A stretch of 64,000 bases of DNA from contig OZ038468.1 in the NCBI GenBank assembly GCA_964036295.1, positions 9,558,183 through 9,622,182 on the forward strand, written 5' to 3'. Under the pieces are notes generated by a model. It saw nothing but the letters and a program-made list of their open reading frames with translations. It did no database searches and had not been told where the DNA came from. Shown here piece after piece: positions 1,985-55,649 of this stretch; the first letter of the stretch is position 1; every line of letters starts with the position of its first letter. The translations under genes and the position numbers were made by a program. Source of the DNA: Plumapathes pennacea. Lineage: Eukaryota > Cnidaria > Anthozoa > Antipatharia > Myriopathidae.

Positions 1985-2166
1985 CATGAAAAGGGAACTT
2001 ACCGAGTACAATATCAATTTTTACTTGTCTTACTGATTTTAAACGTTAGACTTTTAATAAAGGAACTTATTAATGGAGCTATGTATTATACTTTATTTTG
2101 CATATTATGCACATGCATGTATTATACTGTACTTATGTCTTGTTGTTACACACACCTCGTGAATTT

Positions 2167-5640: not shown

Positions 5641-7495
5641 CTTTCATTGAAATCAGGGTGCAAGTTTTGAATGCCTTCAGCACCATCTTGGTATTCCATG
5701 TTCATGTATTCCAGGTGCTATTAAATCATAATTATCATCAATATCATTCAAGCGTTCTTCAATATCGTTCAGATTTTCACTGCAAATCGCATATTGTTTT
5801 TTCATTTGTTCATCTATTGTATCTTTAACAAGTAAGAAGTGTTCTTGATATGAAGAACAATTGCCAATTAGGTCAGTTTCTTCGTTTCTCCATTATGTGA
5901 ACAGCATGATTAACTCACGGTAATGCTTCTCTGGATCTACTTGTTTGTTAAAGCAAACGCTTCTAATAATTATAACTTTTGATTGTTTCTTGTTCTTTTG
6001 CTGTTTACAGGGTTCATCATAAGCATCATCATTTTGTTCATCGATAGATGTCTCTACTGGCAGATTAACAATATCAACTTCATAAGATTTCTTAACATAT
6101 GGTTTCCCACAAGAGTCATACCATGCAGCCCAGTCTGCAAGTGTCACATGTTCAAGGCATAAGGGACAATTCATATATCTCTTCAACAGACCACCAGCAT
6201 AGATTTCCTCACAATCATCTTCCATCTCAATGATGTCATTCAAGGGCTTTAAAAGTTGAACTCTCTGCTCAGGGGGTGATGTATTGATGAATATCACTTG
6301 AGATGATTTTCTCATTGCCAGCTGTAACAAAATATAGACAGCTTCTTGAGCACTGATTTCGACATTGTTTAGAAATTTGTTTCCGATATCTCTTGTTGTT
6401 TTATGCTAGAGTTTCCTTCCTTAGCTTCAGCACATGCAGTTCGCAAAAGTTCACTCATTCCCTTCTGTGCTTTTGAAATATATGATACAATGTACACAGC
6501 ACATGCATAAACATCCAGAACAAACTGGATGTCCATATTGGCTCTCCACGCACCAAGACAAGCAGGATTGTAATTATTGATCCTTAATTCATTTGGTTCT
6601 CTCTTCAAAAATATAGTAGGGTATTTAGATGTGATCTCGCAGGAAGCAGGTAATCTTTCTCAGTCACTTTCAAATTTTCAAGTAACTGGTTAAATGATAT
6701 ATTTTCACCTTCTTTCGTGTCATTTAATTGTTTCTTTATAGATTTTCAAGCATCTTTGTGTTGTTTCAATTCACTTTCTTGAATATCATCAAGAGGATAA
6801 AGAATTATTGTAGAGCTCATAGGTGGCTGTGGGTAGTTGAAACGGCATTCTGCCTTTGACTTTTTACGACATGTGTGTGAATGTCTGGATTTGCCTGTTT
6901 ACCAGTTGAAGAAGTTCAGGATTATTAGTTGGTCTTTTACAACTAATTATTTTGTCAATAAATGCTATGAGTTTATCATCACTATCAACACCAAATACTG
7001 GTGCAACTTCTAGCCATGTCAACATATGGATATGAGGCAAGCCCCTCTGCTGATACTCAACTCTATAAAACCAGTCTGCAATTTTGCCTAAAGGTGCAAG
7101 ACTGCTCATGAGAAACTTTCGTAGAAATTGACATACTTGATAGTTAAAATGCCTGGCACATGTGACTGGATCACTTTGAATAAGCCTACACTTTTCCTGC
7201 CAGTTGAGGTTTTCTAGCTCAGTGTCAGTGTATTCTTTATTGTCAACAAGTTTCCCAAGTATTCTCAGGAGGTGAGGCCACTGAGTTTCTGCTGAAGAGA
7301 AACTACAAAACAAAGAGGCTGGTCCCAACTGTCTGATCATTGCAAATATGTCTTTTTTAGCCTTTTCAAAATATGGAGGTGAACCAATGCTTGTAAAAAC
7401 TTAAAACCCTCGTCATGGTGAATTAATTTCTCCAGTGCTCCAGTGTGTTTCAGCTCTCCAGCTATTTCCTTCGCATTTCCTCACAGCAACTTGAG
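5641..7495 (-). pseudogene. Helentron Rep (HUH) domain remnant
   Basis: Helitron_like_N/Rep region. The frame 7340-6864 gives RQLGPASLFCSFSSAETQWP and the histidine pair in RGLPHIHMLTWLE (about 7025-7050). The frame 6608-6369 gives the tyrosine motif YIVSYISKAQKG. Several stops and frameshifts separate the blocks. The N-terminal domain before the SSAETQWP block is lost at the junction with the segment starting at 7496. Confidence 0.83.
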
Positions 7496-9877
7496 AGATG
7501 GCGCCAGCGTGAAGCCAAGAACTGGCTCATCTTCCACCCCAGTGGCAAACCTCAGAATGTGGTTAAGGGTAATACCTCTGGCCACGTGTAATGACAATAT
7601 AAATACAATATTTGTTTTTAGTCTCTGTCAATACATTTCGCCAAGATATACACAAGATATCTCCTTTAGCTTCAAGCATTCTCCTTTTAGAATTATGAGA
7701 TGAAGCCTGGTTTCCATATTAACACTTCAATCACTCGAATTGCTACGACCACCATATGATTGTCTTGATCGATGGCAGTGACTTTAACTCATTGTGGCGT
7801 CAGAGTTACATATAAGGCTAAAGAAAAGCTGGGCAATTCAGAGTCTATAAAGAGTTCCTTTTACAGGCTGATGCAAGCAAAGCGCAGAGCAAGGTGCTTT
7901 AATGAACTTCTTCATAATCTTTATAACCTCCAACCAATCAAAGCGTGGCTTGTTTCGTTTCTATGTTATTTACAATGACAAAATATGACTTACTTGCAGC
8001 CTTCTTGAGATGCTTCAGAAAGGAGGTGTACACTTCCCCCTCGAGTTGCCTCCTGTTGGACCCTTGCTGAATTCAGGTTTTAATAAATTTATTAACTTCT
8101 GTTAGGTTGAAATACTTGCGGGGTTGGGGCGCCACAGATGTAGGAAGACTGGAAATTTCCTTGCAATCTGCAACAGCACAAGAGGCGGATAATGGTAAGT
8201 AAGATGTTAGGTTTTTGAGGCTCTTGTGGGATATGCCTAACAATATCTTTACTTGTAATGTATTCCCTGTCGACTAGTTGTTTCTTTTTTTTTTACCTGA
8301 TAAATTCCCAGCTCTTTAAGCCCATTGCGCACTTCCAGAAGACACTGGGAGGGAGTATCACTACAGAATATTTCCTGCAGTTTTTCTTCATCAAAAAAAG
8401 TGGCCACTGGCCTATTCTGTAACATACTTAAACCTATGAAAAGAAATCAACTTTAATAAATAGGTACTCTATGCATTTCCACATAAATACATTGCATAGC
8501 CAGTGCATAAAACAATGATGCAATAGTGAAAACTTAATAAACTCCTTACAATTTCAAAGTCTCTACACATACCGATTATCACTCCAATGGTGTGGTACTT
8601 GTTTGCTTCATGGGTTAGAAAGGAGGATATTTCACCATTCCCAGAATGCATTGCAAACGAACTATATTATCACATTTCCTGCCCCCTTGAAGCAGCAGTC
8701 GTTGAAGCGTTTCACATGAAGGATGTCGAGCGAAAAACATGAAACAAATCTCGCTCCAGTGCTGTTCAAAGAAGGCTAAATGTATAAACTGAAATACACT
8801 TATACTGTGGGTTTCCCAAGAGTTCACCACAATTTATGGCCTTGGATTGTCTCCTAAGTGGAGAATACAGTGAAGAATGCTGAAATCAACTTGTTTGCTG
8901 TGTCTTCGCAACATAAACATGATGACAACAAACATCTGAATAAAGGTGGCCATCGTTTTCTCCAGCTCGCAGTCGTTACGGAGAAAGTGTTTCATTACGT
9001 CTTTCAGGTCATGTCACGAGCCGGTAGTGTCGTGCATCTCTTTCGTATCAAACTTTCCCAGGGTTCTGAGGAAACGGCGATTGTTCTGCTTTACTTGTTC
9101 GATCTGTGCCATATTGACGAACTGCCCATGTTCCACAAGTAGCTCAAGGTTTCTGTTTAGTTTGGCGCTTAACTCTGACATGGCTGTCCCTGGACGTTTG
9201 AGCCACTTGAAATCTCCCTCGAAGAACCGCCATGGAATAGTAGTAGAATCTGGAGCTTTGTTCACCTTTCCATATGGGGCCAAAAAGTTTTTTGGAAAGT
9301 GAGCGAAGTAGGTGATTCCAGCTCCAGATGGCGACCCGGGATATGGAGAAGAATGGTTATAAGCCATCTTAGAAATGCTGTGATCAGACAATGCACGAAA
9401 AAACCACCCATTTAAGTACGCTACTTGCATCCCTGGGGGAAACTGTCGGATCGAAACCCCTCTTTTTTCTCATTGGACTAGTGGACTCAGCGGACCTCTG
9501 GGCAAACATAGCTGTGGCCGTTGACCTTGTTCGGCCCGCCTTGTTTTCATGCGGACCACCGAGGAAACGATACTTTCGACCCATAAAAAGTTCCAAGCTC
9601 GGAAAATCATTGTTTTTGAACAAGTTTCCAGTTTTAAACGCTTCAACAAACTTTCAAAAGTGTGTCCTCTGGAAACAACCAAGTTATCTTCAGAACTTGT
9701 GTAAGGGTCATTCCACAGTATTTTGGACAAAAATATGAGTAGGAAAAAGTGAACAGCAAGAAGACAAAACTGACATAGTTGAAAAGTAGAAGAGTTAAAT
9801 TTATTTCAGGTGGGCCTAAAAATTTAATCATGTGACATCATGCATAAATTATCATTAATTAGATGCATAACTAAAAA
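7496..9877. repeat. duplicated segment, copy 1 left half
   Basis: From agatggcgccagcgtg at 7496 to the A-tract at 9873-9877 this matches 22266-24185 at high identity in the same orientation. The copy at 22 kb lacks about 410 bases (8684-9094 here). In this copy the segment is interrupted after 9877 by the intact Helentron and resumes at 19112. It has no LTRs or inverted ends, and carries coding-like exons on the minus strand. Confidence 0.85.
8297..9430 (-). pseudogene. unrecognised multi-exon coding segment (duplicated)
   Basis: Family not recognised. On the minus strand a frame ending at 9014 reads SPYPGSPSGAGITYFAHFP and MSELSAKLNRNLELLVEHG, then continues past one TGA. Further on, an exon to 8573 (SSFLTHEANKYHTIGVIIG) ends in a GTATGT donor and joins in phase to 8433-8297 (RPVATFFDEEKLQEIFCSD), which starts after TAG and ends in GTAAAA. 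Conserved splice sites and a good frame suggest a real gene once existed. The TGA at about 9010, and the 410-base loss in the 23-kb copy, suggest both copies are broken or partial. It could be part of a host gene spread by transposition. Confidence 0.42.
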
Positions 9878-9907
9878 TAGGTCCACGATGTGAACATGTG
9901 TCTACTG
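9878..9907 (-). other. Helentron 3' end with subterminal inverted repeat
   Basis: The first base after the split A-tract is 9878 (plus strand taggtccacg). At 9898-9907 gtgtctactg matches, inverted, the outermost bases of the other end (19111-19102). This arrangement, a terminal motif at the 5' end repeated inverted just inside the 3' end, is the described Helentron/HINE end structure. Confidence 0.65.
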
Positions 9908-10359
9908 CTGTGAGCTGTAACGTTGCATAGGTGGTGTTGTTTACTCAGTAATCGAGTGCAACAGAGCATGTTTGACCCTTTCACTCCCAATGATTGATAA
10001 TTCAATCAGCTTTAATCTGAGGAAGGGATCGAAAGCCAATTTCTCCTAACTGTACAATACATGTATATCTGGTAAGAAAATGAAAGAGAAAATTGAAGTT
10101 AATCACTCTTGGAAGTGAAAGGGTTGAAAAACCAAAGACACGAGGTTTGTCTACTTTTATTTTATTGTTTTTGAAATATGTATTCATAACAGTAAAAGTA
10201 TTTTTGTTTTATGGATTGAGATATGGATATTTTCTAGAACGAGATAATGTAAAAACGTGTTTTGTCCACGTGGAATGCTTGGGTTTAATCACAATACATG
10301 TTCAAAAATTATTGCCCTTTGTCATTTTTATCAGCATGAGCATATGGAACATGGAATGA

Positions 10360-10440
10360 AACTTGTAACAGTAATGGTAATAGTAACAGTAACAGTAATA
10401 CTAACATAGGAATGGTAATATTGTAACAGTAATATATTCT
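10360..10440. repeat. GTAACA-like low-complexity repeat in Helentron 3' region
   Basis: Irregular repeats of taacagtaat/ggtaatagtaa between the RPA ORF and the element's 3' end. The rest of 9908-10525 shows no gene. Confidence 0.7.
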
Positions 10441-10525
10441 GCATAATTTCTTAACAACTCTTGAAAAACAAACAGCAGAATGTTCTTTGTGAAGTTACTG
10501 TCAACATGGATATGTTTGTTGAAGT

Positions 10526-11536
10526 TCATTGCAACTTCATGTTGGAAACAATCTTGGTTGTAGTGTTATATGATATTTCTACTTGTGGTAGATTCAGAAA
10601 GGTTTGAATAACAGTTTCCTCTTGGGTATCAGTGTTGTTGCCATTCAGAAATTGTAGAGCAGCTCTGATGATGTCATCAAACATGGTGACAGTGACTTTG
10701 TTGGTGGGTGTCTTGATATGGCATTGTAATCGACATTGGCTTGGACAATTCACTTTCTTTTGGATCATGTTGCAATTGTCACACTTGACAATAGGAGAAT
10801 CATCTGCGGTGACTTTCTTGTTGCACTTGACACATGAGAAGTATTGCGTGAAATCAGCTACACCTTGGATTTCAGCAGTTGTTGTTGCTGTAGTGAAGCT
10901 GTCTGGTAGCTGCGTTGGCACTGCAAGCATTTCGACAAATGGTTCAGTGGACTGTATTTGGCATCCTTCTCGGGGAGTGTTGACATACGGTACACCATTT
11001 TGATCTTTCCTGACTTTTATATTGGTGAATGTATATGTTTCACCCTCCTTCACTTCATTTGTAAAATTCTCCCAAAGAACAATCTTGATGGAGGCTTTTG
11101 GGTCCACGAGATATCCTTTTCGTTTCCTGATGGGTCCATGTCTTGTGGTGATTCTCTTCTCTCCAGACAGCTGTATAATTTTTTCTTTCAATGTTATCAG
11201 TTGCCCATCGTTAGCACCTGATAGAGATTGGATGTTCTGAACTGACTGCATGTGGAGAATTGGGAATTTGACTTCTGCAGTTTCAAGCTGAGTTCTCTTG
11301 TTCATTAGGACACTGGGAGTTTCAGATGCTGCATCTTTAAGGCTTACGTTTGTAAGCTTTACTGGAGATTTGTTGTTACAGAACGTAGCGAACTCAGTGT
11401 GCTTGCCCGGGGAAAAACACACTCCTCTGAGTACCTTATCTTCAGTCTGAAGTTGCATGTCAAAGTAGTTTGTTTTTTCACTTTTTTTAACTGGAGATAG
11501 GTTGTGAATATATCCAGTTAGTTTTCCCTGGTCCAT
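10526..11536 (-). CDS. RPA-like ssDNA-binding protein of the Helentron
   Basis: A 336-residue protein from a real ATG (11536-11534). It has an N-terminal segment with YIHNLSPVKK, an OB-fold centred on DPKASIKIVLWENFTNEVKE (about residues 145-195), and a C-terminal zinc-ribbon: CVKCNKK, then CDNC, then CPSQC (about 234-275). This is the arrangement of replication protein A large-subunit-like proteins. RPA-like ORFs are a known accessory of Helitrons and are thought to coat the displaced strand during rolling-circle-like transposition. It lies 262 bp downstream of Rep-Hel-EN on the same strand. The frame is intact. It differs from the RPA remnant at 1003-1819 far more than the neighbouring endonuclease does. 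Confidence 0.83.
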   Translation of the reverse strand: MDQGKLTGYIHNLSPVKKSEKTNYFDMQLQTEDKVLRGVCFSPGKHTEFATFCNNKSPVKLTNVSLKDAASETPSVLMNKRTQLETAEVKFPILHMQSVQNIQSLSGANDGQLITLKEKIIQLSGEKRITTRHGPIRKRKGYLVDPKASIKIVLWENFTNEVKEGETYTFTNIKVRKDQNGVPYVNTPREGCQIQSTEPFVEMLAVPTQLPDSFTTATTTAEIQGVADFTQYFSCVKCNKKVTADDSPIVKCDNCNMIQKKVNCPSQCRLQCHIKTPTNKVTVTMFDDIIRAALQFLNGNNTDTQEETVIQTFLNLPQVEISYNTTTKIVSNMKLQ

Positions 11537-11798
11537 CCTGATGAGGTTATTCTGTTAAGGAAAGAGAATTAAGAGAATTGAGAGAAACAGAGAAAAAATA
11601 ACAAGAAAATTAAAATGAAGACTTACCTGTGTTACTATGATTATTCTCTGATTTTTTTAAGGACTAAACTAACTAAGGTTATCATCAAAGTTAGATTACC
11701 TTTAAAATTACTGTAATTCTTAACAACAGTATTACAACATAACATGTCAGTTATTGACAGCAGTTATACAGTCTTGGTGTTAATGTACCTATTTAATT

Positions 11799-14700
11799 TC
11801 AGGTCGTAATATATGCACAAATAGGCTTGTGATCAGAAAAATATGTCTCCAAGACTTGTGGTGTAACAGTTGGGTCTGGTAAATTAGTGTAGATGTGATC
11901 AATACAATGAGAAATCAACTGTCTATAATTGTAGTCTCTAATAAACAGATTACTGAGAGGAAGCCGGTCACTTTCATTTAACCAGTTGAGGTTGAAATCT
12001 CCAATAAAAACATTAAAAGCAGTAGATGGCTGCATGTCAAGGATTTCTCTCAATGCTGTACACATTTGTCGTACTGGTACTTTAGGAGACCGATATACAT
12101 CTATGATGGTTAGATGTGAGAGGGGCATGACCCTTACAATAGTTATCTCAATACCATTAGTGTTGTGGCAATATGGATACCCAGGGATGAAATCAATGCG
12201 ACTGTAGATTGCTGTACCTCCATATGGTCTTGTGTTAAGACTGGACTGACTGTTGTTTTTAAACAGAGTGTATCCATCAATGTCATACATATTATCACTA
12301 TCTGATTGACAAAATCTTGTTTCAGAAAAAATACAGAGATCTGTGGTTGTGTAATTCAAATCTTTGCGTACATCTTCAATATGTCTGTGCAGTGACCTTG
12401 CATTAAGAAAGCAAAGCTTAAAAGGGATTTGGTGCTCACTGTAGAGAGGGGATACACAAAGCTTGAGGCGCCCTTCTGTTCGTAAACGCTCCATTTCAGT
12501 CTGCACATCAGTACTCACTGCTATTTTGTTTTCACAAAGCTCAGTGACATACAGTCCCTCAATTGTAGTTACTCTACTTAGGCCAACATAATGTATATGA
12601 GGTATTGCTTTTCTGGTGTCGAAGTTGACAACAATGCTAGCTTCTGTATCACCTTGTGACCTATGTATTGTTTTTGCAGCTGCTGGGCGGAGTGGAAATT
12701 GTTTTCTTACTACTTGAGCAGTTCTATTTCTACCTACTGCAAACTGAATAATGACAGGTATAATTGGAGTCCATGTAGGTTGAATGCCTTGTACATATAA
12801 GTTTCTGTTCTCATGGCGTGTCTTTTCTCCAACATGAGGATGGTCAAATTGTACCCATATTATTTCAGATGGTTTATCTCTTTGGTGCAATTTTATCTTT
12901 TTAATGACATTACCTGCACCATTTGTCATGCCATCTTCTGTTCGTACATTTATTGCAATTTCTGTTCTTTCCCCTTCTGCTAGCTGAAGGTTGGAAATTA
13001 TTTGCCTTGTTTTCCTGGGGTCATGTGGTATCTGCTTCATGATTTTGTCCCTAAGCTCTGCAGAGTTAGCTCCTATAACACTATCTTGTGCTTTGATAGT
13101 ATACTTGTCACCACATGCTGCACGGTGGACTCTATCATTGAACTCATTGACCTTGACATTTTGAAAGAACAAGTGAGGTATATGCATTGGGTAGTTATCA
13201 ATAGTGTTTTCTTTGATACTTTCCTTGATTTTCAAAATATCATTTTGAGTGTGTTTACCTTCTCGTAATCTGTTTAAAATTTCAGCAAAGACTTTGCTTT
13301 CTCTTTGCCTCATGATCTCTTGAAGCTCAAACATTTTAAAATATTGCTGCCACAGGTTAGGAACTAGAATTCCATATTCTGAGTTGTCCATGTCTTTAAA
13401 TATGTACCCATCCATAACAGGTTGAAGTTGAAACAAATCACCAATTGCAATTATACTAACACCACCAAAGTCCTCTTTACTTCCTTTAATATCCTTCAGT
13501 CTATTGTTTATTTGTACATTGAACATGGTATTTCCTACCATTGATATTTCATCTAGAAATATTAGTTTTACACCTCCAAGTTGAGTTCTGAGAGTATTTA
13601 ATCTACTTGAATCAAGATGTTTGTAATTTTTCAGAGACTGGCATGCTGGTATTGCCAGAGAGCTGTGTATTGTGTTACCTTTGATATTATAAGCAGCTTT
13701 TCCAGTAGGGGCTAGCAGTAATATTTTGACTTGATGAAAGTCATCACCAGCTCTGGTGTTGTAATACTTCAGCGCAGCCTGATATAGTGCCTTAGTGACA
13801 TGTGATTTACCCACACCTGCTCCTCCACTGAGAAAGCAATGGAATGGTTCATCACATGTTTTAATGAGATGGAGGACATGATAGAAGAATTCCTTTTGTT
13901 CTTTGTTCAACATTTGGACCATTTGTCTATAATCATGATCTTGTAACTCGTTAAATATTAGTTGTTCACTATTCGAGGCAGTGGAAGGAATTCCAATGTC
14001 GTCTGACAAATCATAGCCTTCATTGAAATCAGGGTGCAAGTCTTGCATGCCTTCAGCATCATCTTGGTATTCCATGTTCTGTGTAACAGGTGCTATCAGG
14101 TCATAATTACCATCAGACTCTTCAATATCATTTAAGTGTTCTTGGATCTCATTGAGATCTTCACTACAAATTGCATATTGTTTCATTTGTTCATTTATTA
14201 TATTTTTGACAAGTACATGTTCTTGATAAGAAGAAAAATTACCAATCAAGTCAGTTTCTTCATTTCTCCACGATGTGAACAACATGATTAGTTCACGGTA
14301 ATGCTTCTCTTGATCTACTTGTTTGTTAAAGCAAACACTTCTAATAATTCTAGCTTTTGATCGTTTCTTGTTCTTTTGAGGTTCACAACTTGGTTCACCA
14401 CAATCATCATCGTTTTCTTCACTAACAGCTGTCTCTACAGGCAGATTATCAGTATCAACTTGATAGGATTTCTTAGCATATGGTTTCCCAGAAGAGTCAT
14501 ACCATGCAGCCCAGTCTGCAAGTGTCACATGTTCAAGGCTTAAAGGACGCTTTGTGTATCTCTTTAACAGTCCACCAGTGTAGATTTCCTCACTATCATC
14601 TTCCATCTCTTGGATGTCACTTAAGGGCTTTAAAAGTTGAACTCTCTGTTCAGGAGGTGATGTATTAATGAATATCACTTGACGAGATGATTTTCTCATT

Positions 14701-17132
14701 GGAAGCTGTAGTACAATATAGACCGCTTCTTGTGCACTGATTTCGACATTGTTCAGAAATTTATTTGCAATATCCCTTACTTGTTGTTTAATGCTAGAGT
14801 TCCCTTTCCTAGCTTCATCACATGCAGTTCGTAAAAGTTCACTCATTCCTTTCTGTGCTTTTGAGATATATGATACAATGTACATAGCACATGCATAAAC
14901 ATCTAAGACAAATTGGATGTCCATGTTAGCTCTCCATGCACCAAGACAAGCAGGATTGTAATTATTGATTCTTAACTCATTTGGCTTCCTCTTCAAAAAT
15001 ATAGTTGGAGTATTGAGATGCGATCTCACAGCAAGCAGATAATTTTCTTCAGTTACTTTCAAATTTACAAGTAGCTCGTCAAATGATATATTTTCACCTT
15101 CTTTCATGTCATTTAATTGTTTCTTTATAGATTTCCAAGTATCTTTGTGATGTTTTAATTGACTAGCTTGAATATCACTATCCAGGGGATAAAGAATTCT
15201 TGTAGAACTCATAGGTGGCTGTGGGTAATTGAAACGACATTCTGTTTTGGACTTTTTTCGGCATGTGTGTGAATGCCTGTGGATTTGCCTGTTTACAAAT
15301 TTTAGAAGTTCAGGATTATTAGCTGGTCTTTCACACCTAATTATTTTGTCAATAAATGCTATGACTTTATCATCACTATCAACACCAAATACTGGTGCAT
15401 CTTCCAGCCATATCAGCATATGGATATGAGGTGAGCCCCTCTGCTGATACTCAACTCTGTAAAACCAATCTGATATTTTGCCTAAAGGTGCAAGACTGCT
15501 CATGAGGAAATTTCGTATAAATTGACACACTTGATAGTCAAAATGTCTGGCACATGTGACTGGATCACTTTGAATAAGCCTACACTTTTCCTGCCAATTC
15601 AGATTCTCTAGCTCAGTGTCAGTGTATTCTTTATTATCAACAAGTTGACCAAGTATTCTTAGAAGATGAGGCCACTGAGTTTCTGCTGAAGAGAAACTAC
15701 AAAACAAAGAGGCAGGTCCCAACTGTCTTATCATTGCAAATATATCTTTCTTTGCCTTTTCAAAATATGGAGGTGAACCACGCAATGCTCGTAAAAACTT
15801 AAAACCCTCATCATGGTGAATTAAATTCTCCAATGCCCCTGGCTGTTTTAACTGTCCTGCTTTCATTGTTTTGTTATTTCCTTTGCATTTCCTCAGGGCA
15901 ACTTGAGATTTTGCCAACATAATCTTCATTTGCAGCTTTTTTGTTTTAAAGAATATATTTTCTACACACATAGCAGCTCTTCGGTCTGACCGTCTCAATT
16001 CAGATTTACAGATGTCACTATAATGAACAGCTGCAAGCCTATTTTCATTATCAGGCCTTTTGTGGCCTAAGAATATGCCAGGATATGCTAGTTCTTCAGA
16101 ATATTTATCTCTGAATACACTAAGAGGTCTGCTACCTTCAGCCGGTGCAACATTCAAAATGTGTTCACGTTCTCTATCTTCCATGAAGTCTGTGGGAGTT
16201 AACATAGTATCAGTAACCCCGGCAGGTATTTCTGCCTCATCTTCACTCCACTCATCTTCATCATTGAGTGTTTCTTTTGCTTTGTCAGCATTTGTATCAC
16301 ATTCCATATCTTCTGACTGGGCCTCACGTTGTCGATCATCACATTCATACAAATTAGCATTATTTTCTGCCCAATTTTGATTTAACATAATGCCTTCTTC
16401 TCTGTAAAGACTACTGTTATTCACAAGCCAGTTGGCTGCTTGCATTACTTTGTGTGGTCTAACATTTAATGATAATGCTGAACTCTTATACTGTAATCTT
16501 CTCTTTAGGTTGACCTTTATTGTTCCAGTTTCATTTGGTAATCTGGGCAACATACTGATACTATTTGTGATGTCAGCCGGAACATTTACGATGTTCCCAC
16601 TTATTTTGAATTGCCTTCCTCTTGGAGCTTGCATGAGTTTTTGAAATGCCAATCTAGGAGCAAGTAGTCTACACTCCAACTCATTCAGGTCAAAAAATGC
16701 AGGTATTGTTGGAAATTGCATCCCATTCACAGCAGCACAAGGTGGGACCTTATTCTTTGCTAAGTACTTATGGCATGAACTACACAACCATTCAACATTT
16801 TTCACACTTTTTTTATTTAGCAGATACTTGTCAATATCAGGATTACGACATCTTAGTGTTTCAGCAGACTGCACACTGTGTTTATACCACAACTGGTCAC
16901 AGCAACTGCATATGTACATTGGTCCTTTGGAAACAATGTCATGAAATTTCAATGTCAAATTTTCTTCAGATGCTGATTCTGCCTGCTGAAGATGATTATT
17001 ATGTTGCAAAGAACTTTGTTCCATTCCATTACCATCGCCAGAAGCATTTCCATGAGCACCTATATCTAAGTGTTCCTTTTGGGCCTGTTGTTTCTTTTGT
17101 TTGGACTGTTTTCTTTTCCTATATTCCCTCAT
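11799..17132 (-). CDS. Helentron Rep-helicase-endonuclease transposase
   Basis: A 1777-residue protein that starts at the ATG 17132-17130. The N-terminal tail is basic and Lys/Arg-rich, with a zinc-finger-like segment near residues 70-125 (CSCCDQLW, CSSCHKY). The Rep (HUH) nuclease has the histidine pair in RGSPHIHMLIWLE (about 564-576) and the paired-tyrosine motif YIVSYISK (about 745-755). The PIF1-like SF1B helicase has Walker A GGAGVGKSH (about 1107) and Walker B IFLDEIS (about 1194), ending with HRSQGDTEAS (about 1507). The AP-endonuclease-like domain spans about 1570-1777, with FSETRFCQSD, GDFNLNW, CIDHIYTN and SDHKPICAY. It nicks, unwinds and rejoins DNA during rolling-circle-type transposition. 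All the catalytic motifs I looked for are present with no internal stop. The ATG overlaps the stop of the upstream OTU ORF (ATGA), and the frames look like one split chain. Confidence 0.94.
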   Translation of the reverse strand: MREYRKRKQSKQKKQQAQKEHLDIGAHGNASGDGNGMEQSSLQHNNHLQQAESASEENLTLKFHDIVSKGPMYICSCCDQLWYKHSVQSAETLRCRNPDIDKYLLNKKSVKNVEWLCSSCHKYLAKNKVPPCAAVNGMQFPTIPAFFDLNELECRLLAPRLAFQKLMQAPRGRQFKISGNIVNVPADITNSISMLPRLPNETGTIKVNLKRRLQYKSSALSLNVRPHKVMQAANWLVNNSSLYREEGIMLNQNWAENNANLYECDDRQREAQSEDMECDTNADKAKETLNDEDEWSEDEAEIPAGVTDTMLTPTDFMEDREREHILNVAPAEGSRPLSVFRDKYSEELAYPGIFLGHKRPDNENRLAAVHYSDICKSELRRSDRRAAMCVENIFFKTKKLQMKIMLAKSQVALRKCKGNNKTMKAGQLKQPGALENLIHHDEGFKFLRALRGSPPYFEKAKKDIFAMIRQLGPASLFCSFSSAETQWPHLLRILGQLVDNKEYTDTELENLNWQEKCRLIQSDPVTCARHFDYQVCQFIRNFLMSSLAPLGKISDWFYRVEYQQRGSPHIHMLIWLEDAPVFGVDSDDKVIAFIDKIIRCERPANNPELLKFVNRQIHRHSHTCRKKSKTECRFNYPQPPMSSTRILYPLDSDIQASQLKHHKDTWKSIKKQLNDMKEGENISFDELLVNLKVTEENYLLAVRSHLNTPTIFLKRKPNELRINNYNPACLGAWRANMDIQFVLDVYACAMYIVSYISKAQKGMSELLRTACDEARKGNSSIKQQVRDIANKFLNNVEISAQEAVYIVLQLPMRKSSRQVIFINTSPPEQRVQLLKPLSDIQEMEDDSEEIYTGGLLKRYTKRPLSLEHVTLADWAAWYDSSGKPYAKKSYQVDTDNLPVETAVSEENDDDCGEPSCEPQKNKKRSKARIIRSVCFNKQVDQEKHYRELIMLFTSWRNEETDLIGNFSSYQEHVLVKNIINEQMKQYAICSEDLNEIQEHLNDIEESDGNYDLIAPVTQNMEYQDDAEGMQDLHPDFNEGYDLSDDIGIPSTASNSEQLIFNELQDHDYRQMVQMLNKEQKEFFYHVLHLIKTCDEPFHCFLSGGAGVGKSHVTKALYQAALKYYNTRAGDDFHQVKILLLAPTGKAAYNIKGNTIHSSLAIPACQSLKNYKHLDSSRLNTLRTQLGGVKLIFLDEISMVGNTMFNVQINNRLKDIKGSKEDFGGVSIIAIGDLFQLQPVMDGYIFKDMDNSEYGILVPNLWQQYFKMFELQEIMRQRESKVFAEILNRLREGKHTQNDILKIKESIKENTIDNYPMHIPHLFFQNVKVNEFNDRVHRAACGDKYTIKAQDSVIGANSAELRDKIMKQIPHDPRKTRQIISNLQLAEGERTEIAINVRTEDGMTNGAGNVIKKIKLHQRDKPSEIIWVQFDHPHVGEKTRHENRNLYVQGIQPTWTPIIPVIIQFAVGRNRTAQVVRKQFPLRPAAAKTIHRSQGDTEASIVVNFDTRKAIPHIHYVGLSRVTTIEGLYVTELCENKIAVSTDVQTEMERLRTEGRLKLCVSPLYSEHQIPFKLCFLNARSLHRHIEDVRKDLNYTTTDLCIFSETRFCQSDSDNMYDIDGYTLFKNNSQSSLNTRPYGGTAIYSRIDFIPGYPYCHNTNGIEITIVRVMPLSHLTIIDVYRSPKVPVRQMCTALREILDMQPSTAFNVFIGDFNLNWLNESDRLPLSNLFIRDYNYRQLISHCIDHIYTNLPDPTVTPQVLETYFSDHKPICAYITT

Positions 17133-18997
17133 GTAAGCATTTTTCTTCTGTCTTTCCTCAATTTCCTTTTCCTGTATTCCTTCATATAATCATTTTGCTT
17201 CTGTTTATCATGAGTTTGCCGTTTTCTTTTCATGTATTCCTTCATGTAAGCATTCCTCTTGGCATGCTGATTTTCAAGTGTGTTTGAGCCGCCCGACGAT
17301 GGAACTGTTGACACATAATGGTACTCTTCGACATGACCTATATAAATTACTGTTGGTTGCTGTAGTGGATTTACTGCTTCTACCACATTAAACTCTGCAA
17401 AATGCTGATGTGATTCTACAATGTAAATTCTTAAATTCAGTTTGTCGGCAACAGCCTGTATAATGAGACCATCAGTCCATGTTCCTTGGCTGGACATATT
17501 AGTCATATATTCCATCCAGGAATTTTCGGTATTACTTTCGATAAAACGCTCAGGATTTTCGTTCAAGTATTCGATGCCAGAAGCCCGGATATTCAAGTGA
17601 AAATTTGGATCACCATATAACTGGTGAGAAACAGCTCTAAAAAAACAGTCACCTGCACCACCAACATCTAGTGGTCTCAAGCCCAGTTGAAGCAATCGGG
17701 ATTCTAACAACTTATTAGAAGGTAATAAACTGATTGCCATATCTTGATTGCTGTCAGATTGCATAGGCCCTGGGTTTAATTCAATATCACCTGACATTAA
17801 GAGCTTTGTTTTAGAAACACAATATTGCTCATAATCAAAGCGACAATTACTATACGTCTTGTGGTGACAAAATAAAGAACTCTGGGTTTTGGAAGTACAT
17901 TTCTGAACCCTAGTACAGCATCTTGGAAGTTTTAAAAATGTGCTGAAAAAGCAGTTACTTCTGTGGACCAAGTTTACATACCAACTCTTATAATCAGTTG
18001 CTAGCTTGTACATACTGGATGATTTGGGAGCAGATGTTCTAAGTATCTTCTTCAGTTTGGGTCTTAGTTTTCTCCTTCTCATTGTTTGCATGATTTTCTT
18101 AGGTATTCTCGACGGTTTGCGGTCTCTAAACGATCGTTTGACTTTTGACTGTGTGGTGCATTTCCTTGCAGTCGGTCTGCATAATTCGGGGCTGTTGTTC
18201 GCAGTCTCATCACAAGATTCTATTAAACTGAGGTTTAAATCATACTTGTTGACAACATTTAGTGTACTAGCATAGTTTCCTTGCCGAATTACCACAGCTT
18301 TCACAGATGCTCGGTCAGTCAAAGGTGCGATTTGTTCATCATGCTCCCGTAGCACAGCGAAAGTTTCTGCATGAAAGACTTTATTTATCCTGCGGACGGG
18401 CTGAATTTTCCCACAATGGGGCTCACTGATCCTCCGAAGAGACTCATTCGTCCTCCGAAGAGGCTCATTCGCCCTTCGAAGAGGCTCAATCATCCTCCGA
18501 AGAGGCTCATTTATCCTCCGAAGAGGCTCAATCATCCTCCGAAGAGGCTCATTTATCCTCCGAAGAGGCTCAATCATCCTCCGAGGAGGCTCATTGTTTC
18601 CCTTAACGGGCTTTTGTTTCCCCAAACGGGGTTCATTCTTTCCCTTTACGGGCTTTTGTTTCCCCAAACGGGGCTCAGAATTGATTTGAAAGTGTTCTTG
18701 TGTCCGTCTCGCTGGGTGGTTTGGTGTTGATGCTGTTTCTCGTCGAAATATGCATCCACCTATAACTCGAAAGAAGCTCCGAAAACCTTTCATTTGACCG
18801 ACTTGATGCACGCTTTGAAAGCTGTGGTAAGTCGTACTAGCAAATCTAGCGAAATTCATTGTATAACCACTCACCAAAACTCCAACGCTTTCGCGGCCAA
18901 GCTTCCACAAACACAAACACGCCACGCTGTTCAGCGATATTTGGTCGTCCCTTGTCTTGATTGGCTTGCGAGAACGGGCGACGTGATCCGATGGCAT
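17129..18997 (-). CDS. Helentron OTU-protease protein with internal 2A-like motif
   Basis: A 622-residue protein from ATG 18997-18995, 114 bases inside the element's 5' end. Residues 1-110 are unremarkable. Residues 107-200 contain tandem heptads of the type EPLRRxI/N. Residues 285-325 are strongly basic. Cysteines at 349-393 may form a zinc-binding region. A 2A-like motif, GDIELNPGP, lies at 403-411. An OTU cysteine protease domain follows at about 437-565, with catalytic GAGDCFFRAVSHQLYG (Asp450, Cys451) and a C-terminal histidine in EEYHYVS. OTU domains are known accessories of Helentrons, presumed deubiquitinases. The C-terminus has two copies of YMKEYxKRK and ends at a TGA that overlaps the next ORF's ATG by 4 nt. 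If 2A skipping works, a basic 410-residue peptide and a separate OTU protein would be made. Confidence 0.9.
   Translation of the reverse strand: MPSDHVARSRKPIKTRDDQISLNSVACLCLWKLGRESVGVLVSGYTMNFARFASTTYHSFQSVHQVGQMKGFRSFFRVIGGCIFRRETASTPNHPARRTQEHFQINSEPRLGKQKPVKGKNEPRLGKQKPVKGNNEPPRRMIEPLRRINEPLRRMIEPLRRINEPLRRMIEPLRRANEPLRRTNESLRRISEPHCGKIQPVRRINKVFHAETFAVLREHDEQIAPLTDRASVKAVVIRQGNYASTLNVVNKYDLNLSLIESCDETANNSPELCRPTARKCTTQSKVKRSFRDRKPSRIPKKIMQTMRRRKLRPKLKKILRTSAPKSSSMYKLATDYKSWYVNLVHRSNCFFSTFLKLPRCCTRVQKCTSKTQSSLFCHHKTYSNCRFDYEQYCVSKTKLLMSGDIELNPGPMQSDSNQDMAISLLPSNKLLESRLLQLGLRPLDVGGAGDCFFRAVSHQLYGDPNFHLNIRASGIEYLNENPERFIESNTENSWMEYMTNMSSQGTWTDGLIIQAVADKLNLRIYIVESHQHFAEFNVVEAVNPLQQPTVIYIGHVEEYHYVSTVPSSGGSNTLENQHAKRNAYMKEYMKRKRQTHDKQKQNDYMKEYRKRKLRKDRRKMLT
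17765..17791 (-). other. 2A-like (CHYSEL) ribosome-skipping motif
   Basis: It encodes GDIELNPGP, which satisfies the D-x-E-x-N-P-G-P consensus and is preceded by LLMS, as in typical 2A sequences. Skipping would occur between Gly410 and Pro411 (Pro codon at 17767-17765). 2A-like motifs are known in picornaviruses, in some non-LTR retrotransposons and in sea-urchin immune genes. Activity here is inferred. Confidence 0.8.
18420..18600 (-). repeat. tandem 21/42-bp coding repeat (EPLRR heptads)
   Basis: Units built on cctccgaagaggctcat (plus strand) repeat about eight times in frame, alternating EPLRRMI and EPLRRIN. Flanking units at 18600-18680 are a second repeat type (EPRLGKQKPVKG, two copies). 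Confidence 0.88.
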
Positions 18998-19083
18998 TGC
19001 GCAAAATCTTCTTTGTTTTTGATTGGATCCGATTCATTCCATTGTTAACTTACATTACTTTCGGATTTCCAGACGATGGCATA

Positions 19084-19111
19084 GTGTCTGCTGCGCATGC
19101 GCAGTAGACAC
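19084..19111. repeat. terminal palindrome at Helentron 5' end
   Basis: A 28-base inverted repeat with a single mismatched pair, centred on gcgcatgcgc, placed exactly at the inferred 5' end of the element. Confidence 0.85.
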
Positions 19112-19803
19112 AAAAAGGTGGCGTTACGGAAGGGAAATAAGTTTTATATTCTAAAGGAGGCATTTTAAGAGAAATAGAAACGAAAGTGGAAAAGACAAAG
19201 TACTTCATACTAACATAAAAATGTGAATGGAAACCAGAAAAAAAGTTCCAGCAAAAATCCAGAATGCGGCAAAAGTACCATTTCTCCTTCGTAACAATTT
19301 TAGTTGGAAAAGTTTCTTTTATTCCTAGTATAGTTTGGCCTGGCATGTCACACTTTGTGAAGTTCCAATTTAAAGTGGAGGTGTTCAGATAAGATAACCA
19401 GTAAAACTGGACAAAGTTGATTGATCAAATTATTGCAAGTTGAAATTTGTTATGGTGGGGAAATTGTTGTGGAGGGGAAGATCAAGCTGATCTCAATATT
19501 GCACTGCACAGTGATGTGTGAAACACATAAACAGTTTGTTTTGCTTGCTGCGGTCAATCAGACTGCACGATATCATAGCTACAGTAGTATCTTCATGTAT
19601 CTTGAATTTCAAGAGAAAATCCTGAAATGTGACCACTGAAATGAAAGGTCTTCATTTAAGCATGATGCATTTACTTTGTTTATTTTGTGATAGTACATTT
19701 GTTTATGATTTTCAAAGATATGTCACATGCAACAATGCACATTTTAGCAGAGTTACAGATTTAATACTGATACACAGTTGAAGGTATTTGCAACAAACTG
19801 TAC
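19112..19803. repeat. duplicated segment, copy 1 right half
   Basis: From the A-tract (19112-19116) to caacaaactgtac this matches 24186-24852. Together with 7496-9877 it rebuilds the uninterrupted segment at 22266-24852. There is no gene in it. Its right end cuts the SF3 helicase gene. Confidence 0.85.
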
Positions 19804-22265: not shown

Positions 22266-24185
22266 ATAGATGGCGCCAGCGTGAAACCAAGAACTGGCTC
22301 ATTTTCCACCCCAGTGGCAAACCTCAGAATGTGGTTAAGGGTAATACCTCTGGCCACGTGTAATGACAATATAAATACAATATTTGTTTTTAGTCTCTGT
22401 CAATACATTTCGCCAAGATATACACAAGATATCTCCTTTAGCTTCAAGCATTCTCCTTTTAGAATTATAAGATGAAGCCTGGTTTCCATATTAACACTTC
22501 AATCATTCGAATTGCTACAACCACCATATGATCGTCTTGATCGATGGCAGCGACTTTAACTCATTGTGGCGTCAGAGTTACATATAAGGCTAAAGAAAAG
22601 CTGGGCAATTCAGAGTCTATAAAGAATTCCTTTACAGGCTGACGCAAGCAAAGCACAGCAAGGTGCTTTAATGAACTTCTTCATAATCTTTATAACCTCC
22701 AACCAATCAAAGCGTGGCTTGTTTCGTTTCTATGTTATTTACAATGACAAAATATGACTTACTTGCAGCCTTCTTGAGATGCTTCAGAAAGGAGGTGTAC
22801 ACTTCCCCCTCGAGTTGCCTCCTGTTGGACCCTTGCTGAATTCAGGTTTTAATAAATTTATTAACTTCTGTTAGGTTGAAATACTTTCGGGGTTGGGGCG
22901 CCATAGATGTAGGAAGACTGGAAATTTCTTTGCAATCTGCAACAGTACAAGAGGCGGATAATGGGAGTAAGATGTTAGTTTTTGAGGCTCTTGTGGGATA
23001 TGCCTAACAATATCTTTACTTGTAATGTATTCCCTGTCGACTATTTGTTTCTTTTTTTTTTTACCTGATAAATTCCCAGCTCTTTAAGCCCATTGCACAC
23101 TTCCAGAAGACACTGGGAGGGAGTATCACTACAGAATATTTCCTGTAGTTTTTCTTCATCAAGAAAAGTGGCCACTGGCCTATTCTGTAACATACTTAAA
23201 CCTATGAAAAGAAATCAACTTTAATAAATAGGTACTCTATGCATTTCCACATAAATACGTTGCATAGCCAGTGCATAAAACAATGATGCAATAGTGAAAA
23301 CTTAATAAACTTATAATTTCAAAGTCTCTACACATACCGATTATCACTCCAATGGTGTGGTACTTGTTTGCTTCATGGGTTAGAAAGGAGGATATTTCAC
23401 CATTCCCAGAATGCACTGCAAACGAACTACATTATCACATTTCCTGCTCGATCTGTGCCATATTGACGAACTGCCCATGTTCCACAAGTAGCTCAAGGTT
23501 TCTGTTTAGTTTGGCGCTTAACTCTGACATGGCTGTCCCTGGACGTTTGAGCCACTCGCAATCTCTCTCGAAGAGCCGCCCTGGAATAGTAGTAGAATCT
23601 GGAGCTTCGTTCGCCTTTCCATATGGGGTCAAAAATTTTTTTGGAAAGTGAGCGAAGTAGGAGATTCCAGCTCCAGATGGCAACCCGGGATACGGAGAAG
23701 AATGGTTATAAGCCATCTTAAAATTGCTGTGATCAGACAATGCACGAAAAAAACCACCCATTTAATTACGGTACTTGCATCCCTGGGGGAAACTGTCGGA
23801 TCGAAACCCCTCTTTTTTCTCATTGGACTAGCGGACTCAGCGGACCTGTGGGGAAACATTTTCATGCGGACCACCGTGGAAACGGTACTTTCGACCCATA
23901 AAAATGTCAAGCTCGGAAAATCATTGTTTTTGAACAAGTTTCCAGTTTTAACGCTTGTGCGAACTTTCAAAAGTGTGTCCTCTGGAAACAACCAAGTTTT
24001 CTTCAGAGCTTATGTAAGGGTCATTCCACAGTATTTTGGACAAAAATATGAGTAGGAAAAATTAAACAGCAAGAAGACAAAACTGACATAGTTGAAAAGT
24101 AGAAGAGTTAAATTTATTTCAGGTGGGCCCAAAAATTTAATCATTTGACATGCATAAATTATCATTAATTAGATGCATAACTAAA
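22266..24185. repeat. duplicated segment, copy 2 left half
   Basis: Matches 7496-9877 from agatggcgccagcgtg onward and lacks the equivalent of 8684-9094. The Helentron is absent: the A-tract at 24183-24189 is unbroken and runs directly into the right half. Confidence 0.85.
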
Positions 24186-24852
24186 AAAATGGCGTTATGG
24201 AAAGGAAATAAGTTTTATATTCTAAAGGAGGCATTTTAAGAGAAATAGAAACGAAAGTGGAAAAGACATAAAGTACTTCATACTAACATAAAAATGTGAA
24301 TGGAAACCAGAAAAAAATTTTCAGCAAAAATCGAGAATGCGGCAAAAGTACCATTTTCTCCTCCATAACAATTTTAGTTGGAAAAGTTTCTTTTATTCCT
24401 AGTATAGTTTGGCCTGGCATGTCACACTTTGTGAAGTTCCAATTTAAAGTGGAGGTGTTCAGATAAGATAACCAGTAAAACTGGACAAAGTTGATTGATC
24501 AAAATATTGCAAGTTGAAATTGGTTACGGAAGGGAAAATTTGGTTATGGAGGGGAAATTGTTACGGAGGGGAAGATCAAGCAGATCTCAATATTGCACTG
24601 TGTGGTCAATCAGACAGCATATTATAGCTACAGTAGTATCTTTATATATCTTGAATTTCAAGAGAAAATCCTGAAATGTGACCACTGAAATGAAAGGTCT
24701 TCATTTAAGTATGATGCATTTATTTTGTTTATTTTGTGATAGTACATTTGTTTATGATTTTCAAAGATATGTCACATGCAACAATGCACATTTTAGCAGA
24801 GTTACAGATTTAATACTGATACACAGTTGAAGGTATTTGCAACAAACTGTAC
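24186..24852. repeat. duplicated segment, copy 2 right half (Helentron empty site)
   Basis: Matches 19112-19803 up to caacaaactgtac. It includes a small local expansion near 24520-24570 (ggttacggaagggaaa/ggttatggaggggaaa). No gene is seen. Confidence 0.83.
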
Positions 24853-28100: not shown

Positions 28101-30440
28101 ATGGAGAAACAAATAACAGAGCTGAACGGGAAACTACAAACCCTAAATTTCAGAATCGGCAAAGCGGCCAAGGTCATCGAGAAACGTGAGCGAGACGCAG
28201 CGGAACGATGCTGTGAGTCTCTTCACAAGGTCATAAGCGCCGTGAGCAACCTGAGGGAAACAATCGAAGACAAGAAGTTCGGAAAAGGGGAGTCAGCCGA
28301 GGATGTGGAAGAGTGGGCTTCAGAGTTGAACATAGATGACACATTAAGCCGCGTGGATCAGTGCTCGAAGCAGCTGAAAACTCTGATCGCCGCAATAGTT
28401 CGGGAGGCAAAGCAAGAAGATGAATTACGTGACCATCAACACGCCCTCGAACTCGAGCAGGAGAAGCTACAGATGCAACACGAGGCAACAGCCAAAGCAC
28501 ACGCCGAACAACTCGAGTTTGAGCGGAAGCGCTTGGAATTACAACAACAACAACATGAAGGGTTATCGACGTCCCAACATGGAATCGCGAGCGGAGGCAG
28601 CGCGGTGAAAATGCCAAAACTCGTCATCTCCCAGTTTGACGGTACTCATCGGGATTGGTTGCGCTTTTGGGGTCAATTCGAAACACAAATTGACAAGTCG
28701 GGCGTCCCAGGAGTCACCAAATTTTCATACTTGAAGGAGCTGGTTGACCCCAAAGTCAGGAATCTCATCGGGGGACTACCGTTTACGGATGAAGGCTACT
28801 CAGAAGCAAAGGAGTTGTTGTGTAGGAAGTTTGGAAACACCAGTGAGATCGTGGGTTCGTATGTGAGGAACCTTTTAGAGTTACCGAACATCAAAGAAAG
28901 GAACGTTGAGCGAATTCGTGAATTTTACGAGACATTATTATTCAACGTCGAATCACTGCGAACAATGGCGGAATTGAAAAAACTCGACGCGGTGGTGCGC
29001 TTCACCTTTGACAAGCTTCAAGTCATCAAGACGGAACTGACAATGGCGAACGAGAACTGGATCGAATGGGATTTCGACCAGTTTCTGAGCGCTCTTGAGA
29101 AATGGTCAATCAACAATCCTGTGCTTGAAACGAAGTCAAGCCAGCGCGGAAAGGGACGAGCTTTCTGGTCAAACGAAGAAAGGAAACGAGACACCGGAAA
29201 CCGGCCTCGTGCGTTGGGCTGCCTTTATTGCGAGAGCAATCAACACAAGGCAGTGAACTGTGACAAGGTGAAATCTAGTGACGAGCGAAAGAAGATTCTA
29301 TCAACGAAACGGCTTTGCTACAATTGTACGGGGGCCAAGCACAGGGCCAGTGACTGCAAGAGCAAAAACACGTGCAGGACGTGTAATGGGAAACACCACA
29401 CTTCGATTTGCGACAAAGACCAGAACCCACCCCGTGAGTCCGGAATGATGGCTAATTTGGTAGGGGACAATGGCGCTGTTGTTCATCCGGTTGTGGTCGT
29501 ACGCATCGGTGACTACAAGTTCAGGGCCTTACTAGACAGTGGCGCAAGCCATTCATATATTTCTTCGACCGGAATTGATTTAATTAAGGCAAAACCTCAC
29601 TCGACTGGTCTTCGGCAGATTGCCATGCTTACCGGAACAACGACCCGAACAATGCAGACATTCAACGTGTTGATTGAATCCGTGTCAAGTGATTTTCAAT
29701 TGGAAGTGAACGTAACAAAGGTTGAGAAACGAGAGTTATTACTCTTAGACAATCCCGGCTATCCCAAGTTACTGGAAGGGCATTCCCATTTACGGGGAGT
29801 TGTTATGGATGACGTAGACGAGAAGGATAATTTACCAGTTCATATTATCCTGGGCGCTAACAACTTCGCCAAGATACGTACGAGCGAGAAGCTGCGTGTT
29901 GGCAGACGAGGCGATCCAGTCGCAGAGTTTACAAGATTTGGTTGGACAATCATGTCCCCTGGAGCATGGACAGGGTCACCAAACGCCTTTGTCACGCTGA
30001 ATTCTGCCGCCTTGGATTACGAGCAACTTTGCTCACTAGATGTTTTAGGGCTGGCAGAACAATCCGGAAGTCAAGCGGAAGTGTACGACGAGTTCAAGGA
30101 GACACTGAAACGTTCCCCTGAAGGGTGGTATGAAGTCGCGTTGCCGTGGAAGGGCAACTGCCCAGAACTCCTTGGCAACCACAGTGGAAGTTTGCAAAGG
30201 TTGAACTCTTTGTTACGGAAGTTGAGGAGAACTGACATGTTGGAGGAATACGATGCTGTGATTCGTGAACAACTGGAGAACGGGGTTGTTGAGAGAGTCC
30301 CCGTGGGGGAGGCAGAGAGATGTTTCTATTTACCACACAGAGCTGTGTTGCGTGACAGCTCCAGTTCCACTCGTTTACGTGTCGTGTATGGTGCGAGTGC
30401 ACGTGCGCAGGATCAAGCACCATCTCTGAATGTTTACACA
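28101..30440 (+). CDS. BEL/Pao gag-protease-RT (5' part of pol)
   Basis: I start it at ATG 28101; the frame is open further upstream but without an ATG. An N-terminal coiled coil with Glu/Gln-rich repeats (residues about 115-160) is followed by a DUF1759-like gag core (PKLVISQFDGTHRDWLRFWG). Two CCHC-like knuckles follow (CLYCESNQHKAVNC, CYNCTGAKHRASDC) and a third CRTCNGKHHTSIC. The aspartic protease has the DSGA active site (FRALLDSGASHSYIS). The start of RT is present (LRVVYGASARAQ). Near 30440 the frame shifts: the open frame runs on to 30692 with unrelated sequence while RT continues in the next frame. Confidence 0.88.
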
Positions 30441-31054
30441 CGGGTCCTCCTCTCAACAATCAGCTGTGGAGTGTCATTACTCGTCAGCGGTTTCATCCTG
30501 TGGCTGTGGAGGGCGACTTACGCAGAGCGTTCCTACAGATTAGAGTCCGAGAGGCTGATAGGGATGTGCTACGATTCCATTGGATCAGGGATAGGAACTC
30601 TCGGGAAGTTGAGGCCCTGCGATTTACCAGGGTGCTTTTCGGTCTCGGGCCATCACCGTTCTTACTTAACGGAGTATTGCAGCAACACCTAGAGAGTCTG
30701 TCGGAGACTTACCCCGAAACCGTGCGAGAGATCCGTAACAGCCTGTACGTGGATGATCTAATCACCGGGGCGCCGACGACCGGTCAGGCACGGCAACTGA
30801 AACGTGAGGCCGTCGAAATCTTCGAGGATGGGAAGTTCACCCTACACAAATGGAACTCCAACGTTCGGGAGCTCGAGACAGATGGAATGGCGACTACTAA
30901 CGAAGGTGAGCAGTCGCTTGCCAAGGAACAGTTCAACGCGAACTCAAACGTTCGGGAGATCGAGACAAATGGAATTGTGACCACTAACGAAGGAGAACAG
31001 TCGTTTGCTAAGGAACAGTTCAACGCAGTGCAGGGGGAGTGTAAACTACTCTGA
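30441..31054 (+). pseudogene. BEL/Pao reverse transcriptase, frameshifted
   Basis: Continues RT in a second frame: VEGDLRRAFLQIRVREADRD, FGLGPSPFLLNGVL and the catalytic box NSLYVDDLITGAP. Just after it an 87-bp (29-residue) tandem duplication is inserted (see 30860). The frame ends at TGA 31052-31054. Beyond it, GILASLAKVYDPLGLVSPV, a conserved BEL/Pao connector, is visible but followed by further stops to 31200. Confidence 0.86.
30860..31033 (+). repeat. 87-bp in-frame tandem duplication in BEL/Pao RT
   Basis: Two diverged 87-bp units, starting at 30860 and 30947, encode NVRELETDGMATTNEGEQ... and NVREIETNGIVTTNEGEQ... They fall just after the RT palm and are not part of the usual family architecture. 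Confidence 0.85.
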
Positions 31055-31218
31055 CTTGGCTGGAACAAAGCGGAGGATAAGCTACTTGTGAGTTTTCCTA
31101 GCATACCAGCAGTCACCACTAAGCGTGGGATCCTCGCCAGCCTAGCAAAGGTGTACGACCCCCTGGGACTTGTTTCACCTGTCATCTAGAAGCTAAGCAA
31201 TTATATCAAGATACGTGC

Positions 31219-55311: not shown

Positions 55312-55460
55312 TAATGTGCGACAAAGAATTTGATGGCATGTTGGAATAAATAGGTCGACTGTTTTTACGCTCCAAAAGGCCCACATAGTCGTGTAGCTCT
55401 CAAAAGCAAGGACCCTATAGACAACTGTATCAAATCAAGTGACTTTTCTTAAAACAAAAT

Positions 55461-55649
55461 TTATTTTTTGGCGGCTTCTGGCTTGAATTGTGCCATCGCT
55501 GGCTGATCGTGTATAAACTCGGCGGCTCTTAAAACCATATAATCCCTATAAGAACAAAAAAGAACAGATGAGAAAAAGTATGCCTGTAACGTATTTATAG
55601 AAATACACCTTCCTTACCATCTCTTCTGGTAGTTGACGTTAGGTCGTTT
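55461..55649 (-). CDS. last two exons of an unrecognised small gene
   Basis: Exon 55649-55618 (32 nt, after TTTTCAG, before GTAAGG) gives KRPNVNYQKR and joins in phase to 55545-55461 (after CTTATAG): WDYMVLRAAEFIHDQPAMAQ then FKPEAAKK and TAA. Both splice sites and the frame are conserved in the duplicate at 61209-61397. It looks like the C-terminus of a small conserved protein; no upstream exon was identified. Confidence 0.5.

Follow-up and report, generated by a model that had tools for sequence, protein, structure and literature searches.

A Helentron in the genome of Plumapathes pennacea carries a StopGo/2A motif shortly before its OTU-type deubiquitinase (DUB) domain, and this motif very probably separates a basic protein, encoded upstream of it, from the polyprotein (DUB, Rep, helicase, endonuclease) that follows. 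The motif, GDIELNPGP, occupies residues 403-411 of a 622-aa minus strand ORF (17129-18997) in the window, which designates here the whole stretch of 64,000 nucleotides analysed. Its coding bases are 17765-17791, and translation confirms the exact 2A consensus preceded by LLMS that the first-pass annotation had reported at this position. It contains the only NPGP found in the six reading frames of the window. The octapeptide DIELNPGP agrees with the published viral core of StopGo/2A, (D/G/C/N)(V/I)ExNPGP, and the upstream context KLLMSG fits, as judged by eye, the LLLLSG-like sequences of the L-rich class that ends with (A/S/C)G before the aspartate; one member of this class (motif 6) is active in reticulocyte lysate (available text of PMC12846837). 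The predicted skip point lies between Gly410 and Pro411. The features of the element are the following:

9878..19111, minus strand: Helentron insertion of ~9.23 kb, delimited by an empty paralogous site; the ends are uncertain by a few bases within flanking A/T runs.
19084..19111, minus strand: 5′-terminal palindromic inverted repeat GTGTCTACTGC... (14+14 nt, 93% complementary; 26/28 palindromic).
18383..18677, minus strand: tandem repeats coding EPLRR(M/I)(I/N) (self-matches 79-89%, translation).
17129..18997, minus strand: ORF1, 622 aa, basic N-terminal protein, 2A motif and OTU (translation, profile match).
17942..18142, minus strand: conserved basic helical block of the upstream product, residues 286-352 (alignment, structure model).
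17765..17827, minus strand: 2A/StopGo region, residues 391-411, YCVSKTKLLMSGDIELNPG followed by P (sequence, conservation pattern).
17294..17734, minus strand: OTU cysteine-protease domain, residues 422-568 (PF02338).
11799..17132, minus strand: ORF2, 1777 aa, DUF6570, Helitron_like_N (Rep), PIF1 helicase and AP-type endonuclease (profile matches).
10526..11536, minus strand: ORF3, 336 aa, RPA-like protein (Rep_fac-A_C, E 3.3e-6, 27.4 bits against a Pfam cut-off of 28.5).
9898..9907, minus strand: 3′ subterminal repeat CAGTAGACAC, which matches the 5′-terminal 10 bases in reverse complement.
22268..24852, plus strand: paralogous stretch with the empty site, junction near 24187 (window self-comparison).

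The host had been assigned to the Helitron-type elements, and its domains, terminal repeats and empty site identify it as a Helentron. Self-comparison of the window showed that the flanks (9544-9877 and 19112-19479) match with 94% identity a contiguous paralogous stretch (23859-24556) without insertion, and thus the segment ~9878-19111 is an insertion. The empty site (24155-24215) has an A/T run at the junction, in keeping with the T-rich target of Helentrons. The palindromic repeats of these elements are present, the 3′ subterminal repeat being located ~29 bp from the 3′ end as compared to 38-60 bp in mite Helentrons (PMC4067079, in its available part). A candidate short palindrome near the 3′ end, GTTCACATCGTGGAC, was spotted by eye; the repeat finder, run with a minimum length of 10, did not return it. 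ORF2 provides the combination of Rep, PIF1 helicase and endonuclease that defines Helentrons (PF14214, 6e-25; PF05970, 5e-24); the match to the AP endonuclease (PF03372) is weak and below cut-off in the window copy (0.005) and reaches 1.6e-6 in the relative P0124. No relatives of the element at the DNA level were found in the viral and genome contig collections searched. The window contains also a second, broken Helentron fragment (2137-7463, minus strand), whose DNA is 85-88% identical to ORF2 of the first element, and retroelement ORFs with DUF1759, aspartyl protease, Integrase_H2C2 and DUF5641 (28101-33435, plus strand), which we take to be probably BEL/Pao. A direct duplication of ~3 kb (55296-58252 and 61046-64000; 98.4% identical) includes, on the minus strand (56411-57295), an ORF that codes a Frizzled (Fz) domain.

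The probable start of ORF1 is residue 47 (base 18859), to judge from relatives P0007, P0014 and P0026. Its part upstream of the skip point has a net charge of +50 over 410 residues. The structure model of ORF1 is composed of a helical block (~297-349; helices with pLDDT >90 at residues 301-340), a low-confidence segment (350-419; pLDDT <50) that holds the motif, and the OTU domain (~422-568). The motif is therefore placed, as the first-pass annotation had proposed, between a basic N-terminal part bearing the repeats and the OTU domain, in a predicted unstructured seam. The basic helical block is conserved (residues 286-345, 40% mean pairwise identity in 38 relatives), but has no Pfam family above cut-off, and neither sequence comparison with the PDB (best E 0.18) nor Foldseek (best E 4.3) gave a convincing match. 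The domain that follows the seam has the OTU fold, with the catalytic Cys451 and His560 invariant in 12 aligned sequences. Its cysteine motif reads GGAGDC where OTUD3 has PGDGNC, and the Asp three positions before the Cys is absent. By sequence class it is a deubiquitinase-type domain of putative activity.

ORF1 and ORF2 are joined in relatives (P0124, P0125 and others) and apart in the window copy, due to a frame break near 17170 that lies in the A-rich zone coding K/R-rich repeats between OTU and DUF6570 (17129-17190). A programmed overlap of the two ORFs (ATGA, 17129-17132) was considered and rejected: the relatives are fused, a 97% identical copy in the same genome keeps a 1188-aa frame, and another relative, P0007/P0123 (two entries sharing a longest contig of 8902 bases), is broken differently within the same repeat zone. 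We read the overlap as a frame break specific to this copy rather than as recoding. The layout initially claimed, an N-terminal peptide followed by an OTU protease, thus holds for the window copy, whereas in relatives the part downstream of the motif is a whole DUB-DUF6570-Rep-helicase-endonuclease polyprotein.

An alignment of related elements had been proposed as a check of conservation of D-E-NPGP against its flanks, and its outcome favours the motif. Mean pairwise identity among 38 relatives, hand-chosen from the 120 of the search with the motif and OTU part, is 84% in the octapeptide, 64% in LLMSG and 59% in the OTU domain, falling to 17% both in the linker 346-390 and in residues 412-428. 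D-[VI]-E-x-NPGP is kept in 37 cluster representatives that are less than 60% identical to one another downstream of the motif, and neither linker is. The eight positions are D (36) or N (1), V (19) or I (18), E (37), a free position (L, S, T, E, V, M, R, K and more), and N, P, G and P (37 each); L/I-x-L-S/A/C-G/N precedes the octapeptide across the 37 clusters. The anchor pattern used to find it asked for D/G/N/C at the first position and for N-P at the fifth and sixth, with G/R/D and P/H allowed at positions 7-8, so that the E and the V/I are unforced while the other positions are not independent evidence. Note also that representatives were chosen by length, and degraded copies would hardly be visible among the 37. 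The pattern of the relatives equals the core and L-rich upstream class published for viruses (available text of PMC12846837).

NPGP is found in 103 of the 120 best relatives (from 132) obtained with the motif and OTU part as query. When at least 40 residues precede the DUB, the same set has NPGP in 92/101 proteins and the strict motif in 86/101. As this query held the motif, the search was repeated with the DUF6570-Rep part, which lacks it. Among the best 120 of its 749 hits, all 49 proteins in which 40 or more residues precede a DUB (34 OTU, 15 VTD) have NPGP, strict in 48, and none of the 62 DUB-less proteins or of the nine whose DUB starts within 40 residues does; gene models without a DUB may be truncated, so that a missing motif in them carries little weight. 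In a set of 248 proteins, eight of them obtained with a motif-containing query, the strict motif was never found beyond residue 500. Among the 61 of at least 2000 aa, it is present in 34/34 with a DUB and at least 40 residues upstream and in 0/27 others. Among the matches listed, the DUB match begins 4-36 residues past the N of NPGP in OTU proteins and 14-23 residues past it in 15/15 VTD proteins. Protein P0011, with OTU-like matches on both sides of its 2A motif, has a weaker second OTU match before the motif and the main OTU 13 residues after; it gives a spacing of -175 and is counted in both sets. Motif-bearing anthozoan relatives include Oculina patagonica, Nematostella vectensis and Paramuricea clavata.

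Two unrelated types of DUB, OTU and the herpes-tegument-like VTD, are found close behind the motif. The VTD element P0167 is 74% identical to the OTU elements P0234 and P0103 over the first 89-98 aligned residues, to just past NPGP. The identity of its N-terminal module is 63-71% to OTU elements P0106, P0066 and P0078, and 56% to P0248. Past NPGP the proteases diverge into the herpes-tegument-like DUB of P0167 and the OTU of P0234, P0103 and other OTU elements. Three proteins (P0241, P0243, P0053) carry the strict 2A motif twice in succession, which predicts an extra small product between them.

The assembly of the window's genome (290 Mb) was searched with the strict pattern as DNA, using V or I codons except GTG. 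It yielded 121 matches versus 0 for the reversed control. The first 30 loci comprise 17 of VTD type, eight of OTU type, three with the N-terminal module (LANDVETNPGP) and no recognised DUB, and two non-LTR endonuclease-like (one by Pfam match, one by eye). A profile match underlies 12 of the 17 VTD-type assignments, the others being made by matching sequence, and six of the eight OTU-type ones. Three motif sites are upstream and in frame with DUF6570 matches in open frames of 2788, 2948 and 2154 aa (coordinate arithmetic). A further OTU type with the classical PGDGNC and a 2A motif (RISGDVEENPGP) is found at loci L014, L034 and L038. For OTU elements, 41 loci were inspected, comprising the window copy and 40 stretches out of 59 planned. 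The sequence reaches the beginning of the OTU domain in 39 of them: the strict motif is present in 13, x-Gly-Gly-Met (GGM) stands at the seam in 17, and nine have neither (L063 and L073 are near-misses, and others are truncated or broken).

The first-pass annotation held that related elements with a degraded motif and a maintained ORF would speak against the motif. Such elements exist in part: there are degraded single copies (GDIELNPGH, NPDP, NPRP, NPGL), a clade (P0003, P0041, P0064) that keeps the basic block and OTU without the motif, and in the same genome the GGM lineage, which keeps the ORF, with at least one open frame of 2070 aa (C2:31528729); D-[VI]-E-x-NPGP persists nonetheless in the representatives of the 37 clusters. 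In a tree of 150 OTU domains the motif variants are scattered, with 12 rows off the strict motif and four further rows labelled as lacking it; for P0115, one of these four, the label is wrong, as its motif is located upstream of the stretch scanned. The motif-less clade and the loci with GGM or neither sequence indicate that the 2A motif is widespread, not obligatory, in OTU Helentrons.

The GGM loci (L052, L053, L055, L058, L059, L061, L062, L064-L066, L069-L072, L075, L076, L078) have an OTU domain and many of them the basic block, without 2A. Their seam reads mostly L-R/K/N-GGM and in one locus Phe-Ile-G-G-Met; L074, with a related seam, has GGV. GGM is found in three subfamilies, one being a single locus. 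The 30 preceding columns are 12-26% identical and the 17 following ones 22-39% across the 17 loci, in which the 100% identity of GGM is forced by the selection of rows. Ubiquitin ends with LRGG, after which DUBs cut. The resemblance of GGM to this tail suggests that the element's own OTU could cleave the polyprotein there. We advance only tentatively, as a possibility on the doubtful side, that Helentrons keep a processing seam before the DUB-headed polyprotein that is filled either by StopGo or by a GGM cleavable by their own OTU. The seam may equally well hold an internal start codon that is conserved.

The mechanism we favour for the 2A-bearing elements is ribosome skipping. While ...KLLMSGDIELNPG-P is read, the newly made peptide within the ribosomal exit tunnel would block formation of the Gly410-Pro411 bond, the first chain would be released after Gly410 and the ribosome would go on from Pro411. 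Product 1 would be a basic protein of ~364-410 aa with a C-terminal NPG. Product 2 would start with Pro and reach the DUB ~10-20 residues in, continuing in fused relatives with DUF6570, Rep, helicase and endonuclease. In the window copy, whose frame is broken past the OTU domain, the second product would be a short OTU protein. The motif, its place in a predicted unstructured seam between two predicted folded domains, its conservation pattern and its recurrence ahead of two unrelated DUBs are observed; skipping itself, its efficiency and an importance of the separation for transposition are inferred.

Skipping might be partial, yielding fused and free forms of the polyprotein with different destinations, similarly to the 2A signal sequences of sea-urchin NLRs, a precedent for dual targeting (PMC4981915, in its available part). 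Hydrophobic stretches before the motif in P0223, P0237, P0104 and P0115 agree with this possibility, which we consider unlikely: the upstream part of the window element is 364-410 residues long and strongly basic, and the upstream products of full-length relatives are mostly long and basic as well (net charge above +15 in 21/34). It is quite improbable that the motif is a hitch-hiking ancestral relic, inactive or unimportant today. Motif-less lineages do persist, the OTU tree shows point variants on dispersed branches, and the window copy itself is broken after the OTU; but the contrast between octapeptide and linkers, maintained over deep divergence, and the presence of the motif in every protein of at least 2000 aa with a DUB and at least 40 residues upstream point to selection. 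Alternatively, the motif could be conserved for its linear sequence or its structure in some other function (as a docking, degradation or protease signal) and cause no skipping; the support for skipping is sequence evidence, and the Cys-Val-Ser before the motif is partly conserved too. This reading is very improbable: a free fourth position, exchangeable V/I and invariant E, N, P, G and P reproduce the StopGo grammar of the viral data, and the motif is kept in its predicted unstructured seam even though the protease that follows is unrelated. Chance origin can be dismissed, as composition predicts ~2e-4 strict matches in the six frames of the window and the motif is conserved in relatives.

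The first-pass annotation knew of no 2A described in a Helitron, and our search of titles and abstracts on Helitron, 2A, StopGo and ribosome skipping agrees, having found no report among the papers listed; the eukaryotic-2A survey of Rao et al. 2025, outside its scope, or Odon et al. 2013 may mention one. If ribosome skipping operates here, 2A use would extend to rolling-circle elements, as a large conserved DNA transposon family. The Helentrons would have an overlooked first protein, with a basic helical domain for which no known relative was found, and it would be suggested why a DUB of either class heads the polyprotein. Animal genomes would also offer new 2A sequences that can be tested.

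StopGo has been described as a mainly viral device that cellular genes rarely use (available text of PMC12846837). The Helentron motif shares with picornavirus F2A and P2A the core octapeptide and the L-rich upstream class described there, but its carrier is a DNA transposon and its activity is predicted. Helentrons with OTU or VTD domains were already known (PMC4067079, PMC9741609), and those described in the accessible portions of these papers resemble the present elements in their Rep/helicase and AP endonuclease, palindromic subterminal repeats, T-rich target and DUB of either class; the same portions, which contain no mention of 2A or of separation of products, include the suggestion that the protease might cut Rep/helicase/endonuclease (PMC4067079). 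The 2A-like signal sequences of sea-urchin NLRs (PMC4981915, same part) are likewise non-viral, with recoding activity demonstrated; there, in contrast, the motif belongs to host immune genes, is located at or near the extreme N-terminus and doubles as signal sequence. A known likeness in a cellular mobile element is that of the APE-type non-LTR retrotransposons, which carry D(V/I)ExNPGP (Odon et al. 2013, as cited in the available text of PMC12846837 and PMC4981915). Locus L024 of the window's genome has a 2A shortly before an Exo_endo_phos domain, like these elements. They are retrotransposons, whereas the carrier described here is a rolling-circle DNA transposon with its 2A placed before a deubiquitinase-type domain.
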